Part shown: in pieces, positions 3,264-12,390 of the stretch
Layout of the letters: every line of letters begins with the position of its first letter
Position numbering within the stretch: position 1 is the first letter of the stretch
Assembly: GCA_005862285.1 (NCBI GenBank)
Contig: SZXW01000009.1
Coordinates: 42,501-85,258, forward strand
Direction: 5' to 3'
DNA from: Chlorobium sp.
GTDB lineage: Bacteria > Bacteroidota > Chlorobiia > Chlorobiales > Chlorobiaceae
Length of the DNA: 42,758 nucleotides
Translations under genes and position numbers: made by a program
Notes under the pieces: generated by a model
What the model was told of the DNA's origin: nothing
The model's database searches: none
The model's input: the letters and a program-made list of their open reading frames with translations, nothing else

Positions 3264-5159
3264 ATGCCGCAATCTTTCAATTCCGTTTATCAGGAGTCCA
3301 TCCAGAATCCCGAACAATTCTGGGCAGAGGCCGCAGAAAACCTACACTGGTACAAAAAATGGAACAGGGCGCTTGATACAAGCAACCCTCCGTTTTACCG
3401 CTGGTTTGCCGGCGGCATGACCAACACGTGCTATAACGCGCTTGACCGGCATGTCGACGAAGGAAGGGGCAACCAGACTGCGCTCATTTACGACAGCCCG
3501 GTAACCGGTTCGAAAAATCGGTACACCTACCGCGAGTTCCGCGACATCGTGGCGCTCTTTGCGGGAGCCCTGCAGTCAAGAGGAGTGCGCAAAGGCGACC
3601 GCGTCATCATCTATATGCCCATGATCCCCGAAGCGGTCATCGCCATGCTCGCCTGCGCGAGGCTCGGCGCCATCCACTCGGTTGTGTTCGGCGGTTTCGC
3701 ATCCCACGAGCTTGCCGTGAGGATCGACGACTGCAAACCTAAAATCATCATATCCGCATCCTGCGGCATCGAGCACAACAAGGTCATCGACTACAAAAGG
3801 CTGCTCGACTTCGCCATCGAACTCGCGCACTTCAAGCCTGAAATCTGTATCATCAAGCAGCGCGACCAGCTGAAGGCCGAACTGAACGAAGAGCGCGACC
3901 TCACCTGGAACCAGTCGCTGCTCGGCGCCGAACCTGTGCAGTGCGTCCCCGTAGAATCATCCGATCCACTCTATATCCTTTATACTTCAGGAACCACCGG
4001 ACAGCCTAAGGGCATCGTGCGCGACAACGGCGGCCACATGGTGGCCCTGCAGTGGTCCATGAAGAACGTATACAACATCGAGCCCGGCGAGGTTTTCTGG
4101 GCGGCCAGCGACGTCGGCTGGGTCGTCGGCCACTCCTATATCGTCTACGCACCGCTGCTCCACGGCTGTACCACCCTCCTCTTTGAAGGTAAACCCGTCG
4201 GCACTCCCGACCCCGGAACCTACTGGAGGATCATCAGTGAATACAACGTCTCGGCGCTCTTTACCGCCCCTACCGCCTTCAGGGCAATCAAGAAGGAAGA
4301 CCCGAACGGCAACTACATCAAACATTACGACCTCTCGAATTTCCGCACCCTCTTCCTTGCCGGTGAACGGGCCGACCCCGATACGGTCAGATGGGCCGAA
4401 GAAAAACTGAAGGTGCCGGTCGTCGACCACTGGTGGCAGACAGAAACCGGATGGGCGATTGCGGCAAACTGCCAGGGAATAGAACCCGGACCGATCAAAT
4501 ACGGTTCAGCTTCGCGTGCCGTGCCTGGCTATAACGTGCAGGTTGTCAACTCCGAGCTCCAGGAGCTTCCTCCGGGCCAGATGGGCGACATCGTCATCAA
4601 GCTTCCGCTGCCGCCGGCAACCATGCTGACGCTTTGGAAAGCGGACAAACGTTTCGAGGAAAGCTACATGACGCAGTTCCCCGGCTACTACCAGACCAGC
4701 GACGCCGGCTATATCGACGAGGACGGCTATATCTACATCATGTCTCGTACTGACGACGTCATTAACGTTGCAGGCCACAGGCTCTCGACGGGATCAATCG
4801 AAGGGGCGCTCTGCGAGCACCCGGACGTTGCCGAAAGTGCCGTCATCGGTGTGCACGACGACCTGAAGGGACAGGTCCCGCTCGGATTCCTTGTGCTTAA
4901 GTTCAACGTCGACACGCCGCACAACCAGATCATCAAGCATGTCATCGAGTATGTTCGTGAGAACATAGGGCCTGTCGCCTCGTTCAAGAATGCGGTCATC
5001 GTCAACCGCCTGCCGAAAACCCGGTCAGGCAAGATCCTTCGTGGAACCATGCGCAAGATTGCCAACGGCGAGGAGTACACCATGCCTGCCACTATCGACG
5101 ATCCGGCGATCCTCGACGAGATAACGGAAGCACTGAAGACGATCGGTTACGGCAAATGA
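3264..5159 (+). CDS. prpE: Propionyl-CoA synthetase (PrpE/ACSS3-type acyl-CoA synthetase)
   Basis: An ANL-superfamily enzyme that activates a short-chain acid to its CoA thioester through an acyl-AMP. The 631-residue protein has the N-terminal ACS domain with the FYRWFAGGMTNTCYNALDRH signature typical of PrpE/ACSS3 rather than Acs. It also has the ATP-binding P-loop YTSGTTGQPKG (from residue 240), the A5-like DHWWQTETGW, and the C-terminal KTRSGKILRG with catalytic K590. Propionate is the likely substrate because the next five genes form the methylmalonyl-CoA route; acetate remains possible. A CAGGGG lies about 10 bases before the ATG. It heads a six-gene same-strand operon, with the epimerase 28 bases downstream. 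Confidence 0.9.
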   Translation: MPQSFNSVYQESIQNPEQFWAEAAENLHWYKKWNRALDTSNPPFYRWFAGGMTNTCYNALDRHVDEGRGNQTALIYDSPVTGSKNRYTYREFRDIVALFAGALQSRGVRKGDRVIIYMPMIPEAVIAMLACARLGAIHSVVFGGFASHELAVRIDDCKPKIIISASCGIEHNKVIDYKRLLDFAIELAHFKPEICIIKQRDQLKAELNEERDLTWNQSLLGAEPVQCVPVESSDPLYILYTSGTTGQPKGIVRDNGGHMVALQWSMKNVYNIEPGEVFWAASDVGWVVGHSYIVYAPLLHGCTTLLFEGKPVGTPDPGTYWRIISEYNVSALFTAPTAFRAIKKEDPNGNYIKHYDLSNFRTLFLAGERADPDTVRWAEEKLKVPVVDHWWQTETGWAIAANCQGIEPGPIKYGSASRAVPGYNVQVVNSELQELPPGQMGDIVIKLPLPPATMLTLWKADKRFEESYMTQFPGYYQTSDAGYIDEDGYIYIMSRTDDVINVAGHRLSTGSIEGALCEHPDVAESAVIGVHDDLKGQVPLGFLVLKFNVDTPHNQIIKHVIEYVRENIGPVASFKNAVIVNRLPKTRSGKILRGTMRKIANGEEYTMPATIDDPAILDEITEALKTIGYGK

Positions 5160-5187: not shown

Positions 5188-5595
5188 ATGATCAAAAAGA
5201 TAGACCATATCGCCATTGCCGTCCAGAACCTCGAAACCGCACTCGAGACGTTCAGGAACGTTCTCGGGTGCGACCCGGGCTCGATCCGGGTAGAGGAGGT
5301 GCCGTCCGAAAACGTCCGGGTGGCATTCATCCCCGTCGGGGATTCGAAAATCGAACTTCTCGAACCCATGAGCGAGGAGAGCCCGATTTCGAAATTCCTC
5401 GCCAAAAACGGCGACGGCATGCACCATATCGCCCTCGAGACGAGCGATATCGCAGATGAGGTGGAACGCCTCGAATCACAGGGTGTCCAGACGCTCGGAC
5501 AGCCGAAAGAGGGGGCGGGAGGTAAAAAAATCGTCTTCCTCCACCCGAAACAGACAAACAGGGTGCTCCTTGAATTTGCCCAGAAAAAACATTAA
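5188..5595 (+). CDS. mce: Methylmalonyl-CoA epimerase
   Basis: A 135-residue vicinal-oxygen-chelate (glyoxalase-fold) protein that interconverts (S)- and (R)-methylmalonyl-CoA, linking the carboxylase to the mutase. The two beta-alpha-beta-beta-beta units start at KKIDHIAIAVQNLE (metal ligand H7) and DGMHHIALETSDI. The final strand NRVLLEFAQ carries the conserved glutamate. The family's IELLEP and GGKKIVFLHPK segments are present and the length is typical. A GAAG precedes the ATG. Its place between prpE and the carboxyltransferase supports the call. Confidence 0.95.
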   Translation: MIKKIDHIAIAVQNLETALETFRNVLGCDPGSIRVEEVPSENVRVAFIPVGDSKIELLEPMSEESPISKFLAKNGDGMHHIALETSDIADEVERLESQGVQTLGQPKEGAGGKKIVFLHPKQTNRVLLEFAQKKH

Positions 5596-5623: not shown

Positions 5624-7429
5624 GTGAAACATTTTTATCTTCCCTTCGAGAAAAAAGAAGGATTCAGTTACACCCGGGAAAGCATCGAACAGCTTTCAGA
5701 ATACGAAAAATACCAGCTCTCCTACCACCCCGAACGCCCCAGACATCTCGACTATCTCACCGTCTTCGACAACGTTCAGGAGTGCCTGAAAAACGATGAG
5801 CACGGAAGCTGCATCATCCAGACCCACCGGGCCACGCTGCGCGAAGGGGACATGGAATTCCCGGTCATGCTGATCGGCCAGCAGTCCGCACCGACCTCCA
5901 ATTTCAAGGAGCTGCATCAGCTCATGAAAAATCCTGATCTCATCAGGAAGTGGAACCAGGGCATGCCGACTCCGGCTGCTTTCGAAAAAGCGATCGGTGC
6001 TATTGCGCTGGCTGAAGAAGAAAACCGCACGATCATCACGGTTGTCGATACGGCCGGAGCCGATCCGACCGAAGAATCGGAGGGAGGCGGAATCGCCTGG
6101 AAGATAGGGCGCTGCATGCAGGCACTTGCCGAATCCTCCGTTCCCACCTTATCGGTCATCATCAACCGCGGATGCAGCGGAGGCGCTATTGCCCTGACAG
6201 GATGCGATGCCGTGCTCGCGATGGAATACTCAACCTATCTCGTGATCTCCCCCGAAGCCTGCTCTTCCATCCTTTTCCGTACAAGAGACAAGGCGAACCT
6301 CGCAGCGGAGATTTCGCAGATCACCGCAAGGGAAGCCCTGAAAAACGGTATCGTCGATGATCTGATTCTCGAGAACGAGGGACCGGCCCATCATTTCCCG
6401 GAACCTGCAAAACAATCGTTCAAGGAAGTCCTTCTGCAATGGATCGACAAGATGAACCGGACCCCGAAAAACGAGATTTTCCGGAAAAGGCTGGAACGGT
6501 GGTCCAAAATCGGTAAGTGGGATACCTTGAGCGAAGATGAAATCCTTTCATTCGAGAAACAAGTTTCCCTCTTCATCCCGAAACCCAAAAATGTGCTTTT
6601 CGTTGCACGCCACAGGAAATGCATCGACGGAGCCGGCAAGAGGAAGCTCGATCCGGTGCTTTACACGAAGCTTTTCAATGACAATTTTGTCTGCGAAACC
6701 TGCGGGCACCGTTATGTAAGGCTCTCTGCACATGACTATATCTCTTTCATCCTCGACAAGGACTCATTCCGCGAACATCCCGAAACGCGCTACATCGTTG
6801 ACAGGGATATCCTGAACTTCCCTGATTATGCGGACAAGATTGTCGAAGCAAGGCAAAAAACCGGCGCCGCATCCTCTTTCCTGACCGGTGATGCGACAAT
6901 CGACGGCAAACCGGTGGTATTCTGTGCTACAAACTTCAACTTCCTCGGCGGTTCCTTCTGTATGTCCACCGCGGAAAAGGTCTTCCGTGCCTGCCGTATC
7001 GCCATCGAACGACAGACCCCACTCATCATCCAGGCTACCGGCGGTGGTGCAAGAATGCATGAAGGATGCTCCTCGATGGTCGGCCTCCCGAAAGTGCATG
7101 TCGCTATATCGAGCGTTGAAAAGGCAGGCCTGCCGGTTATCACGATCATTACGGACCCTACACTCGGCGGGGTTGCAATCGGCATGGCTTCACGAGGAAT
7201 AAAGCTTTTCGAACACAATGCCGGCAATATCGGTTTTTCAGGAAAACGTGTCATCGAACAGTACACCGGCAAACCAACGACGAAGGATTTCCAGACAACC
7301 TGGTGGCTCCAGCAGAAAGGGTTTGTCGAAAATACCGCTCGGCCATGGGATATGCGGGAGGAGATCCTCGGCATCATAAAATCTCACGAATCCAGACTCG
7401 ATTCGAAACAAGAACTGCAGCAAGCATAA
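5624..7429 (+). CDS. Fused AccA-AccD-type acyl-CoA carboxyltransferase (probable propionyl-CoA carboxylase CT subunit)
   Basis: A 601-residue carboxyltransferase that would move CO2 from carboxybiotin to an acyl-CoA. Residues about 100-290 resemble the AccA (alpha) subunit: GCSGGAIAL at 183-191 and YSTYLVISPEACSSILF. Residues about 330-590 resemble AccD (beta): CETCGH at 357-362, GGGARMHEG from 473, and TDPTLGGVAIGMASRG. PccB-type enzymes and known AccD-AccA fusions carry the beta-like half first, so the order here is reversed. The AccD zinc ribbon normally has two CxxC pairs; here the first reads CIDG (C333, G336), leaving three cysteines, with H330 a possible fourth ligand. The start is GTG with no clear SD. 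Biotin carboxylase and BCCP genes are absent from the operon. Propionyl-CoA specificity is inferred from the neighbours. Confidence 0.85.
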   Translation: MKHFYLPFEKKEGFSYTRESIEQLSEYEKYQLSYHPERPRHLDYLTVFDNVQECLKNDEHGSCIIQTHRATLREGDMEFPVMLIGQQSAPTSNFKELHQLMKNPDLIRKWNQGMPTPAAFEKAIGAIALAEEENRTIITVVDTAGADPTEESEGGGIAWKIGRCMQALAESSVPTLSVIINRGCSGGAIALTGCDAVLAMEYSTYLVISPEACSSILFRTRDKANLAAEISQITAREALKNGIVDDLILENEGPAHHFPEPAKQSFKEVLLQWIDKMNRTPKNEIFRKRLERWSKIGKWDTLSEDEILSFEKQVSLFIPKPKNVLFVARHRKCIDGAGKRKLDPVLYTKLFNDNFVCETCGHRYVRLSAHDYISFILDKDSFREHPETRYIVDRDILNFPDYADKIVEARQKTGAASSFLTGDATIDGKPVVFCATNFNFLGGSFCMSTAEKVFRACRIAIERQTPLIIQATGGGARMHEGCSSMVGLPKVHVAISSVEKAGLPVITIITDPTLGGVAIGMASRGIKLFEHNAGNIGFSGKRVIEQYTGKPTTKDFQTTWWLQQKGFVENTARPWDMREEILGIIKSHESRLDSKQELQQA

Positions 7430-7463: not shown

Positions 7464-9239
7464 ATGACCAACACTCTTCCTGATTCCCTGTTTCAGGAAT
7501 TCCCAGCGGTGAGCCGGAACGAATGGAAAACAAGGGCAACGGCAGAGCTCAAGGATACACCCTACGAAAAAATCGTATGGAAAACCCCGGACGGTTTCGA
7601 GCTCGAACCATGGTACTCACGTGAAGAAAAACGGAACTTTCTTCTGATACCTCCCGGAAAGTCTGCAAATTCCTGGATTAACTGCCGCCTGATAAACGTG
7701 ACCGATCCCGCTGCGGCAAACAGCGCTGCAATTAAAAGCATCTCTGCGGACGTTTCCGCAATCGAGTTCTGCATAACCAACCCGTCACACTGCTCACCTG
7801 AAAACCTGGCCATACTGCTTTCGGGCATCGAGCTGCAGGCATTGCCCGTTTATTTCTCCGGCAACCTGCCTCCTGCAGATGAACTGCTCGCGGTGCTTGC
7901 CTCGATCGAAGGATTCAGTGCGAACGAAGGCGGAATCATAGGTGCACTCTCTCCCGTTTCACAGGAAATGGATGCCGCTTACGGCAAATGGCTGGAAACA
8001 CTCCCAGCGTTCAGAATCTTTACGGTCGATACGCTTCCATTCCATGAACAGGGTTCCACACCCTCGCAGGAAATCGCCCTTGCGCTGGCCGGTGCGAGCG
8101 ACATGTTAAACCGCTTCACTGAAACAGGCATTGCTGCCGACCGGATCGTTTCTGCAATGGAAATCATCCTGCCTGTTGGAACAAGCCATTTTACCGAACT
8201 TGCCAAGCCCCGTGCTCTGCGCTATCTGCTCGGGCACCTGGTGAAGGCTTACGGGGCGGATCCCGGAGCGCTTCCACGCCTTTTCGCAAAAACATCCGGA
8301 CGCGCCATTTCCCTGCTTGATCCGTTTACCAACGTTCTGCGGCTTACTACCGAAGCGGTTTCGGCAATCCTCGGCGGATACGGAACGCTTCAGATCGTCC
8401 CTTTCGACAACGGGCTGTCGGTCGAAAACGACACTGCGGAACGCATCACGGGAAACATCCATCTGATCCTGCGGAGCGAAGCTGCCCTCGACCATGTCAT
8501 CGACCCGGCGGCAGGTTCGAATTATATCGAGACCCTCACCAGCAAACTCGCCGCATCGGCCTGGGACACTTTCAGGAAAATCGAGGCAGAGGGAGGACTG
8601 AATGCCGCCCTTGAAAGCGGCATGATCAACGCCATGCTTGCCGAAGCTGCCGCTGCTGAGAAAAAACAGCTGGGCAACCGCAAAAAGACCCTGATCGGTG
8701 TGAACCGCTATCCCTGGCCGCTTACCCCGGAACAGCAGGAAAACATCGAAACGCTGGAAACAATAATTGGCTCAGGAATAAAAACAAGTGCAACCGCATC
8801 CTGGGAGCTTCTGCGTTTGAAAACGCTCGCCCGGGCAGAAAAAAGCGGCCGGTGTCCTTCGGTACTCATCTGGACGCACGGTGACCCCGGCATCAGTTTA
8901 AGGCAGGCGGCTTTCTGCGAAGACTTTTTCAAATGCGGAGGTTTTTCGATCGATGGCACGACTTCCCTGCCGGTTGAAGAAGGATCATATATCTCCTCCC
9001 TGCAGCTGAACCCCGATATCGTGGTGCTCTGCATCGCTGACAAGGATCCGGTACCTGTCGCCGAATCAATCTGCAGCACCCTCCAGCGCCTTCAGCCGGG
9101 CATCATTGTGGTCATGGCCGGCAGGCCCCCGCAGGGACATGAAAAACTCCTCGAAGCCGGCCTCGACAGCTTCGTCTATACCGGCGTAAATGTCAGGGAT
9201 ATGCTCGAAACTTATCAACATAAAACCGGAGTGCAATGA
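7464..9239 (+). CDS. mutA: Methylmalonyl-CoA mutase, small (beta) subunit
   Basis: The non-catalytic partner of the heterodimeric B12-dependent mutase that interconverts (R)-methylmalonyl-CoA and succinyl-CoA. The 591-residue protein has a diverged TIM-barrel (family-typical [20 protein letters not shown] and VGVNRYPWP-like segments) and a C-terminal flavodoxin-like domain. The cobalamin motif DxHxxG is missing there ([14 protein letters not shown] in its place), as expected for a small subunit. Its last four bases overlap the start of mutB (ATGA), implying translational coupling and a 1:1 complex. It lies 34 bases after the carboxyltransferase. Confidence 0.93.
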
Positions 9240-11371
9240 GACCTGATTTCTCAACCCTTGATATTTCCTCGCCGGCTGTTGCTCCGGAAAACGGCGTGAA
9301 ACCTTCAGTCTGGACCACGCCCGAAGGTATCGGCATAAAATCGAGTTACCGTGAAGAGGACATCGCCGGAGCACACCAGCTTGATTTCGCACCCGGCTTC
9401 GCGCCCTACATTGGAGGTCCCTACACCACGATGTACACCACCCGTCCCTGGACCATCCGCCAGTACGCCGGGTTCTCTACCGCCGAAGATTCGAACCGTT
9501 TCTACCGGCAGAATCTCGCTGCGGGCCAGAAAGGCCTGTCGGTGGCGTTCGACCTTCCGACCCACCGCGGTTACGACTCTGACCACCCGAGGGTGATCGG
9601 CGACGTCGGCAAGGCTGGCGTGGCGATCGATTCGGTCGAGGACATGAAAATCCTGTTCGACCAGATCCCGCTCGGCGACATTTCTGTATCCATGACCATG
9701 AACGGAGCGGTCCTGCCCGTCATGGCCTTCTACATCGTGGCAGCCGAAGAACAGGGCGTGACGCCTGACCATCTCAGCGGCACCATCCAGAACGATATCC
9801 TCAAGGAGTTCATGGTTCGGAACACCTACATCTATCCGCCCGAACCGTCGATGAGGATCATTGCCGACATCTTCCGCTACACCAGCGAAAAGATGCCGAA
9901 GTTCAATTCCATCAGCATCTCGGGCTACCATATGCAGGAAGCGGGCGCCACGGCTGACCTCGAGCTTGCTTTCACCCTCGCCGATGGCCTCGAGTACATC
10001 CGTACGGGATTGAAGGCCGGCCTCGATATCGATGCATTCGCTCCAAGGCTCTCCTTCTTCTGGGCGATCGGCATGAACTGCTTCATGGAAATCGCAAAAC
10101 TGCGGGCTGCCAGGATGCTCTGGGCGAAAATCGTCAAACAGTTCAATCCGAAAAGCCCTAAATCGCTCATGCTCCGCTCCCACTGCCAGACTTCAGGCTG
10201 GAGCCTGACCGAACAGGACCCGTTCAACAACATCACCCGCACCTGCCTCGAAGCGCTCGCCGCGGCGCTCGGCCATACCCAGTCGCTGCACACGAACGCG
10301 CTCGACGAGGCGATCGCACTTCCGACCGAATTTTCCGCGAGGATCGCAAGAAACACCCAGCTCTATCTGCAGGAAGAGACCGACATCACCAGAAGCATAG
10401 ACCCCTGGGCAGGCTCCTATTACATCGAGCACCTTACCCGCGAGCTCGCCGCGAAAGCGTGGAAGATCATCTGCGATATCGAAGAGGCAGGCGGCATGGT
10501 TAAAGCCATCGAACAGGGCATCCCGAAGCTGCAGATTGAAGAAGCCGCCACACGAAAGCAGGCGCGCATAGACAGCGGCGAAGACATTATCGTCGGCATC
10601 AACGGTTACCGGACCGAAAGCCGGACCGATATAGACCTGCTCGAGGTCGACAACACGAAAGTGCTCCATCAGCAGATCCAGAGGCTCCAGTCCATAAAGG
10701 CAGCGCGCAACGAAGAAGAAACCTCCCGCGCCCTGAAAGCAATCGAAGAGTGCGCGGCATCGGGGGAAGGAAACCTGCTCGAACTGGCCGTGGAAGCTGC
10801 AAGAAAAAGAGCTACCTTGGGAGAAATATCATCGGCCTGCGAAAAAACGTTCGGCCGCTACAAAGCTACGCTCAGGCTCAACACCAGTGTCTACATGTCC
10901 CAGATGCAGAATAACCAGCTCTTCATAAAGGCACAGCAGCTCGCCGATGAATTCGCAGATCTCGATGGCCGCCGGCCAAGGATCATGGTCTCGAAGGTCG
11001 GTCAGGACGGGCATGACCGCGGAGCCAAGGTTATCGCTGCCGCTTTCGCCGATATCGGTTTCGACGTCGATATCAGTCCGCTCTTCCAGACGCCCGAAGA
11101 GGTTGTCCAGCAGGCGCTCGACAACGATGTGCACGTCATCGGCGTTTCGAGCCTCGCCGCAGGCCACAAGACCCTCATCCCGAAAATCGTCGAGGGACTG
11201 AAATCAAGCGGACGGGAGGATATCCTGGTCATCGCCGGCGGCGTCATCCCCGAGAGGGATTACGAATTCCTCTATGAACACGGAGTTGCCGGTGTTTTCG
11301 GCCCCGGTACGGTCATAGCGGAAGCCGCCATAAGCATTCTCGAAAAAATGATCGCACGCCATCAGCAATGA
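9236..11371 (+). CDS. mutB: Methylmalonyl-CoA mutase, large (alpha) catalytic subunit
   Basis: The catalytic subunit of adenosylcobalamin-dependent methylmalonyl-CoA mutase, 711 residues and complete. The TIM-barrel contains the acyl-CoA-binding [33 protein letters not shown], and the [20 protein letters not shown] and [10 protein letters not shown] signatures. The C-terminal B12-binding domain has D591-G-H593-D-R-G596; H593 is the predicted cobalt ligand. The start overlaps mutA by four bases and the end overlaps meaB by four bases, so the three should be made together. In a bacterium with a reductive TCA cycle the enzyme could run in either direction. Confidence 0.97.
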
Positions 11372-12390
11372 GCTCAAGCGGAATGCCGCCGGGAAACACC
11401 CGACGGAGCGAACCGGACGTCGACACCATTGTCGGCGGCATTCTCGGGGGCGACAGGCTGATGCTGAGCCGGGCCATCACGCTCATCGAATCGCAGAAGC
11501 CCGAGCACCAGCAGAAAGCGCACGAGGTCCTCGACCGATGCCTGAAACACAAAACAGACTCCATCCGCATCGGCATCACCGGATCTCCCGGGGCCGGCAA
11601 AAGCACTTTCATCGAAGCACTCGGGGAGATTATCATCCGTAGCGGCCTTTCGCTTGCCGTGCTTGCCATAGACCCGAGCAGCCGCCAGACCAGAGGCAGC
11701 ATTCTCGGCGACAAGGCACGCATGGAAAAACTCTCGGGCAGAAAAGAGGCATTCATCCGCCCCACGGCATCTTCCGGGCATCTCGGGGGTTTGTCGCCTA
11801 AAACCCATGAAACCATCGTACTCTGCGAAGCAGCGGGTTATGACGTGATCATCGTCGAAACTGTCGGCGTTGGACAGTCGGAAGTCGAGGTGGACACCAT
11901 GGTGGATTTCATCCTGCTGCTCATGCTGCCGGGATCGGGTGACGAACTGCAGGGCATCAAGAGAGGGATCATGGAAATCGCAGATGCCATAGCGATCACG
12001 AAATCCGACGGTGCCCAGGAAGGAATTGCCGCACTGTCGAAAACCGAATTCGAAGCTGCTCTCAGGATGCTTCCGGCAAAATATCCATTCTGGCACCGCC
12101 AGGTTTTTCTCACCTCGGCACTAACAGAGAAAGGGATCACAGAGGTCTGGGAAAATATTTCCGATTTCATCAGGGAAATCCGGAATAAAGGCATGTTCGA
12201 GGAAAAACGGAGGGAACAGCTCAAATCTCTGCTGTACCGCGTTCTCGAAGAGATGCTGAAAAAAGAGTTTTTCACCCATCCCGAAGTTACGCGCCTGAAA
12301 GAAGATGTCGAACATCAGGTTCTTTCCGCCGAACTCAGTCCGTTCAGCGGGGCGGAGACCCTGATGAAAGCGTTCACTCGTCTCCGATAA
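11368..12390 (+). CDS. meaB: MeaB/ArgK-family G-protein chaperone of methylmalonyl-CoA mutase
   Basis: MeaB-type GTPases gate cobalamin loading and protect methylmalonyl-CoA mutase. The 340-residue protein has Walker [10 protein letters not shown] (72-80), the family's [21 protein letters not shown], the switch-III-like [27 protein letters not shown], and the base-recognition segment AIAITKSDG. The ATG overlaps the mutB stop (ATGA). Its last 17 bases overlap the convergent uspA gene tail-to-tail, leaving no room for an ordinary intergenic terminator. The older 'ArgK arginine/ornithine transport kinase' label does not fit this context. Confidence 0.95.

Follow-up and report, generated by a model that had tools for sequence, protein, structure and literature searches.

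The open reading frame at positions 5624-7429 of the forward strand in the Chlorobium sp. DNA analysed here (the window, 42,758 nucleotides) appears to encode a single-chain carboxyltransferase, in which an AccA-type alpha half is joined to an AccD-type beta half and which serves propionate assimilation in the Chlorobiaceae. We put the probability of this reading at about 0.78. The most likely function is that of the carboxyltransferase of a propionyl-CoA carboxylase, a substrate suggested by the operon and the phyletic pattern. Chlorobium limicola can assimilate labelled propionate; the probable route passes through propionyl-, methylmalonyl- and succinyl-CoA (Fuchs 1980, covered in the review PMC11269200). 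No paper naming the carboxylase of the green sulfur bacterial propionate pathway was found in the open-access literature; an earlier annotation elsewhere is possible. The fusion provides a specific candidate for this enzyme gap in the long-known methylmalonyl-CoA propionate pathway.

Architecture of the fused gene

The fusion is one intact reading frame with a GTG start that encodes 601 aa, and it is the third gene of the operon prpE-mce-fusion-mutA-mutB-meaB. The features are as follows:

3264..5159, + strand, propionyl-CoA synthetase-like gene (prpE), first in the operon; profile matches
5188..5595, + strand, methylmalonyl-CoA epimerase (mce); above the NCBIfam equivalog cut-off
5624..6526, + strand, AccA-like (alpha) half of the fusion, residues about 1-301; Pfam and NCBIfam matches, tree, alignment
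6527..6598, + strand, linker of about 25 residues, residues about 302-325; alignment, low pLDDT around 314-363
6599..7393, + strand, AccD-like (beta) half of the fusion, residues about 326-590; NCBIfam match, tree, alignment
7464..9239, + strand, methylmalonyl-CoA mutase small subunit (mutA); profile matches
9236..11371, + strand, methylmalonyl-CoA mutase large subunit (mutB), overlapping mutA by 4 bases
11368..12390, + strand, mutase chaperone GTPase (meaB), overlapping mutB by 4 bases

An earlier note on this DNA had claimed that an alpha-like domain precedes a beta-like domain in one chain, and this is borne out by the profile matches: Pfam ACCA covers residues 16-297 (E 1e-55) and the NCBIfam accD model TIGR00515 residues 344-590 (172 bits). 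The NCBIfam accA models match residues 17-300 with 183 and 167 bits, and Pfam Carboxyl_trans lies in the second half, with its best stretch at 399-555 (E 2e-29). Both halves score below their equivalog cut-offs (357 or 319 bits for accA, 317 for accD), so the alpha half is AccA-like and no accA equivalog. The mmdA profile, with a cut-off of 999 bits, reaches far lower (82 bits), and its best stretch spans residues 362-553 only.

Alignment places the junction of the two halves at natural ends. The alpha half is about 39 residues short in the N-terminal helical region of AccA, retains the N-terminal LPFEK motif and ends where AccA naturally ends; the beta half is complete and starts with the zinc ribbon. 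Such an AccA end, followed by a linker and an AccD start, indicates that natural ends were joined, as in a gene fusion. Within the ribbon H330, C333, C357 and C360 are invariant among 45 sequences, so that three cysteines are kept and one AccD cysteine is lost, leaving the site short of four; H330 is a possible substitute zinc ligand. The AccD half is the last domain of the 601-aa chain, mutA is the next gene, and no biotin carboxylase or BCCP domain is present.

The active-site Gly-Gly motifs are retained. The carboxybiotin-side oxyanion motif NRGCSGGA occupies residues 181-188 of the alpha half, and the beta half carries GGGARMHEG at 473-481 and TDPTLGGVAIG at 510-520. The oxyanion regions show fixed differences from all sampled AccA and AccD sequences, namely GEGxSGGA to NRGCSGGA, SGGARM to GGGARM and AS to IG after GGV, which correspond to changes near the active site from E to R182, from S to G473 and from A-S to I519-G520. 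As these conserved neighbours are changed, the partners or the chemistry of the fusion could differ from those of AccA/AccD. One further position was compared, the specificity residue of the Streptomyces enzymes (PccB D422, AccB I420); at this place the fusion has Ala and AccA has either Gly or Ala, so the position is uninformative. The fusion family is under strong purifying selection, with a dN/dS of about 0.04-0.07 in both halves between close relatives.

Kinship of the two halves

The earlier note expected the halves to be AccA- and AccD-like instead of forming a collinear PccB fold, and profile scores, trees, solved-structure matches and superposition of the predicted model all agree with this. 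The collinear beta-then-alpha architecture of PccB, MmdA and 12S (about 510-530 aa) is not found, as the order in the fusion is alpha-beta. In maximum-likelihood trees both halves fall on the AccA and AccD side and are split with 100/100 support from the PccB halves (C-halves for alpha, N-halves for beta), on long stems of 2.3 and 2.6. The beta half is placed inside the AccD of Bacteroidota plus Chlorobi (83/87), the alpha half outside the sampled AccA. Grouping with Chlorobiales AccA (p 0.13) or Chlorobiales AccD (p 0.16) was not rejected in AU tests. Among solved structures the first half matches AccA best and the second half the AccD of S. aureus, C. aurantiacus and E. coli, with PccB-type chains far lower. 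At the level of sequence, the AccA/AccD kinship of the halves rests on the trees together with profile scores and motifs.

The AlphaFold2 model of the fusion (45 sequences) reached a pLDDT of 73 and a pTM of 0.79 and is weak in places at 314-363. Its separate halves match AccA and AccD structures, while the CT part of Shewanella oneidensis AccS (PDB 9kkm) aligns collinearly with the entire predicted chain (Z 25.0, 474 residues, rmsd 3.5 A). These results bear on the idea that the fusion is an ordinary PccB-type beta subunit that has been circularly permuted and misread as inverted. Homology, though distant, links the PccB halves to AccD and AccA, a permutation would give the same domain order, and the AU test leaves a position of the beta half beside PccB unrejected (p 0.35). 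Nevertheless, the AccD half still shows the remains of a zinc ribbon together with invariants specific to AccD, the end of the alpha half is that of AccA, long and fully supported branches set the PccB halves apart, and PccB structures fit one half well at a time where AccS fits the whole model. A permuted PccB is therefore very improbable and was rejected on profile scores, trees and fold matches.

The operon and the proposed pathway

The gene order prpE-mce-fusion-mutA-mutB-meaB is found in essentially every locus with a spanning contig. No gene for a biotin carboxylase or BCCP lies within the operon, and a promoter and terminator scan gave a signal no better than shuffles. In several Chlorobium, mutA and mutB form one reading frame of about 1092-1134 aa (L027, 9798-13085; also L023, L025, L035, L038 and L056), in which MutA residues about 1-384 of 591 are joined directly onto a full MutB and the C-terminal third of MutA is lost.

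In the proposed pathway PrpE would form propionyl-CoA, and the housekeeping AccC and AccB would provide carboxybiotin-BCCP. The fusion, presumably loaded by this shared AccB-AccC as gene content suggests, would then carboxylate propionyl-CoA. Mce and MutAB/MeaB would convert the product to succinyl-CoA, which would enter the reductive TCA cycle. The catalytic activity of the fusion in this scheme is predicted.

Other carboxylases and biotin proteins

The window lies on contig C14 of a 2.61-Mb genome whose relatives are Chlorobiaceae. This genome carries a stand-alone AccA adjoining accB and accC (contig C7) and a stand-alone AccD (C9). The earlier note had taken a genome without separate accA and accD as a sign that the fusion is the housekeeping enzyme; both genes are present, and the fusion as housekeeping acetyl-CoA carboxylase was rejected. 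AccC and AccB are a biotin carboxylase and a biotin carrier available in the genome. A second biotin carboxylase is of the pyruvate carboxylase type and lies beside a 689-aa biotin protein.

Two PccB-type proteins are encoded in the same genome. One lies beside a transcarboxylase 5S-like gene, forming a 12S/5S-like pair, and the other has an OadB-like gene as its neighbour, an arrangement like that of Na+ methylmalonyl-CoA decarboxylases. Both clusters could interconvert propionyl-CoA and methylmalonyl-CoA and overlap in function with the fusion. Such arrangements were seen at two loci of G000:C1. At L061 (6558-9651) a PccB-type protein adjoins a transcarboxylase 5S-like protein and resembles Geobacter bemidjiensis Gbem_0335/0334. 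At L062 (7487-10984) a PccB-type protein, a small membrane-type protein, a biotin carrier and an OadB-like beta subunit are encoded, likely a green sulfur bacterial Na+-pumping methylmalonyl-CoA decarboxylase.

Two closed genomes, G002 and G016, contain the operon, and a Carboxyl_trans scan recovered AccA, AccD and the fusion as their only Carboxyl_trans/ACCA proteins and no PccB-type protein, which leaves the fusion as the only candidate carboxyltransferase for propionyl-CoA there. AccC is their only biotin carboxylase, and unless propionyl-CoA stays uncarboxylated in these two genomes, the fusion would carboxylate it with AccB-AccC. Their biotin carriers are AccB and one biotin protein of about 631 aa of the 5S/OadA type (G002 C1:939119, G016 C1:1183581).

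This last protein could accept or donate carboxyl groups, and such reactions are reversible. The fusion might accordingly act mainly in reverse, or as a decarboxylase or transcarboxylase partner from methylmalonyl-CoA to propionyl-CoA, for example with the 5S/OadA-type protein, during dark fermentation of succinyl-CoA to propionate. We consider this quite unlikely: the nearest relatives of the fusion belong to ATP-dependent acetyl-CoA carboxylase, many genomes have a separate cluster of the decarboxylase type, and the strictest companion of the fusion is the activating ligase gene prpE, which speaks for uptake.

Distribution, gain and loss

The fusion was detected in 76 of the 86 Chlorobiaceae genomes; 12 further Chlorobiales and about 296 further genomes of the phylum Bacteroidota yielded no match. 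The contig scan used peptide patterns of the fusion's own family, and distant alpha-first fusions in other phyla were possibly missed. As the same reading frame is present at 52 loci from Chlorobiaceae records and in most of the 86 family genomes, it is no artefact of a single assembly. The earlier note had proposed an independent fusion of ordinary AccA and AccD. The kinship stands; the fusion is no one-off but a family-wide Chlorobiaceae gene, both halves of which sit on long branches.

Six of the 10 family genomes in which the fusion was not detected are 66-86% complete. In G045 and G079 the truncated prpE shows that a contig break accounts for the absence. Three genomes document losses. 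G029 (complete) still has mce, mutA, mutB and meaB in syntenic position and has lost both prpE and the fusion; G030 (complete) is without the fusion, mutB and a prpE orthologue; and in G020 (closed, 2,154,946 bp) prpE, the fusion and mutAB have decayed together. The G020 locus (L098, G020:C1:757500-772500) retains a prpE fragment, a broken fusion and only the C-terminus of mutB, with mutA gone, and a 12S-type gene elsewhere in this genome is also a fragment. Taken together, these losses indicate that the fusion travels more tightly with prpE than with the mutase.

This pattern can be set against the proposal that the fusion is a second, regulated carboxyltransferase of acetyl-CoA carboxylase that makes malonyl-CoA, its operon position reflecting regulation by short-chain acids only. 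Both halves do come from acetyl-CoA carboxylase subunit families, and AccB-AccC is probably shared. However, separate accA and accD are kept everywhere, the fusion is lost together with prpE (G029) or with the whole pathway (G030), and G002 and G016, which keep prpE, mce and mutAB, would have no route from propionyl-CoA to methylmalonyl-CoA. A malonyl-CoA role is thus unlikely, and like the decarboxylase/transcarboxylase role it fits the co-loss data less well than propionate assimilation. The re-tasking to propionyl-CoA by the operon that the earlier note envisaged is where the operon, the co-loss and the lack of another candidate in two closed genomes point.

Comparison with known carboxyltransferases

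What PccB, MmdA and transcarboxylase 12S have in common with the fusion is propionyl-CoA, its proposed substrate, and a distant homology that extends to both halves. Unlike the fusion, they carry the beta half first and no zinc ribbon, and long branches separate the halves. It is somewhat more likely than not that a dedicated propionyl-CoA carboxylase arose in the Chlorobiaceae without descent from the PccB family, when subunits of acetyl-CoA carboxylase were fused with alpha first and retuned, such that one AccB-AccC biotin half serves two carboxyltransferases with different substrates. If true, specificity for propionyl-CoA had a second origin, in the AccA/AccD lineage instead of PccB. This would provide a natural comparison for what determines whether acetyl- or propionyl-CoA is used, and engineering would gain a compact single-chain carboxyltransferase.

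Actinobacterial AccD-AccA fusions (Embleya L182, Pseudonocardia L184) also combine AccD- and AccA-type domains in one chain, but with beta first and alpha second; in Pseudonocardia, genes for a biotin carrier and a biotin carboxylase come after the fusion gene. Those entries of a plasmid collection that were checked held only separate genes or beta-alpha fusions at about 34% or less, and viral contigs yielded no relatives. With AccA and AccD (E. coli 2f9y/8uz2, S. aureus 2f9i) the fusion shares the fold, the sequence family of each half and the oxyanion Gly-Gly motifs, and AccB/AccC are likely partners, as for the bacterial subunits. It differs from these separate subunits in being a single chain below the equivalog cut-offs, with changed active-site neighbours, an altered zinc site and the AccA N-terminal region missing.

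The earlier note regarded the order of the halves as a domain swap. This is real relative to PccB and AccD-AccA fusions but not unprecedented, as AccS of Shewanella oneidensis (AccADCB; PDB 9kkm/9w4a), whose domain order was described as unusual (PMC11602165), likewise carries the alpha domain before the beta domain in a single chain. AccS works as an acetyl-CoA carboxylase in the synthesis of fatty acids (PMC11602165), and its 1517-aa chain, unlike the fusion, also includes biotin carboxylase and BCCP. The two proteins share 18% identity, and the propionate operon is absent for AccS.
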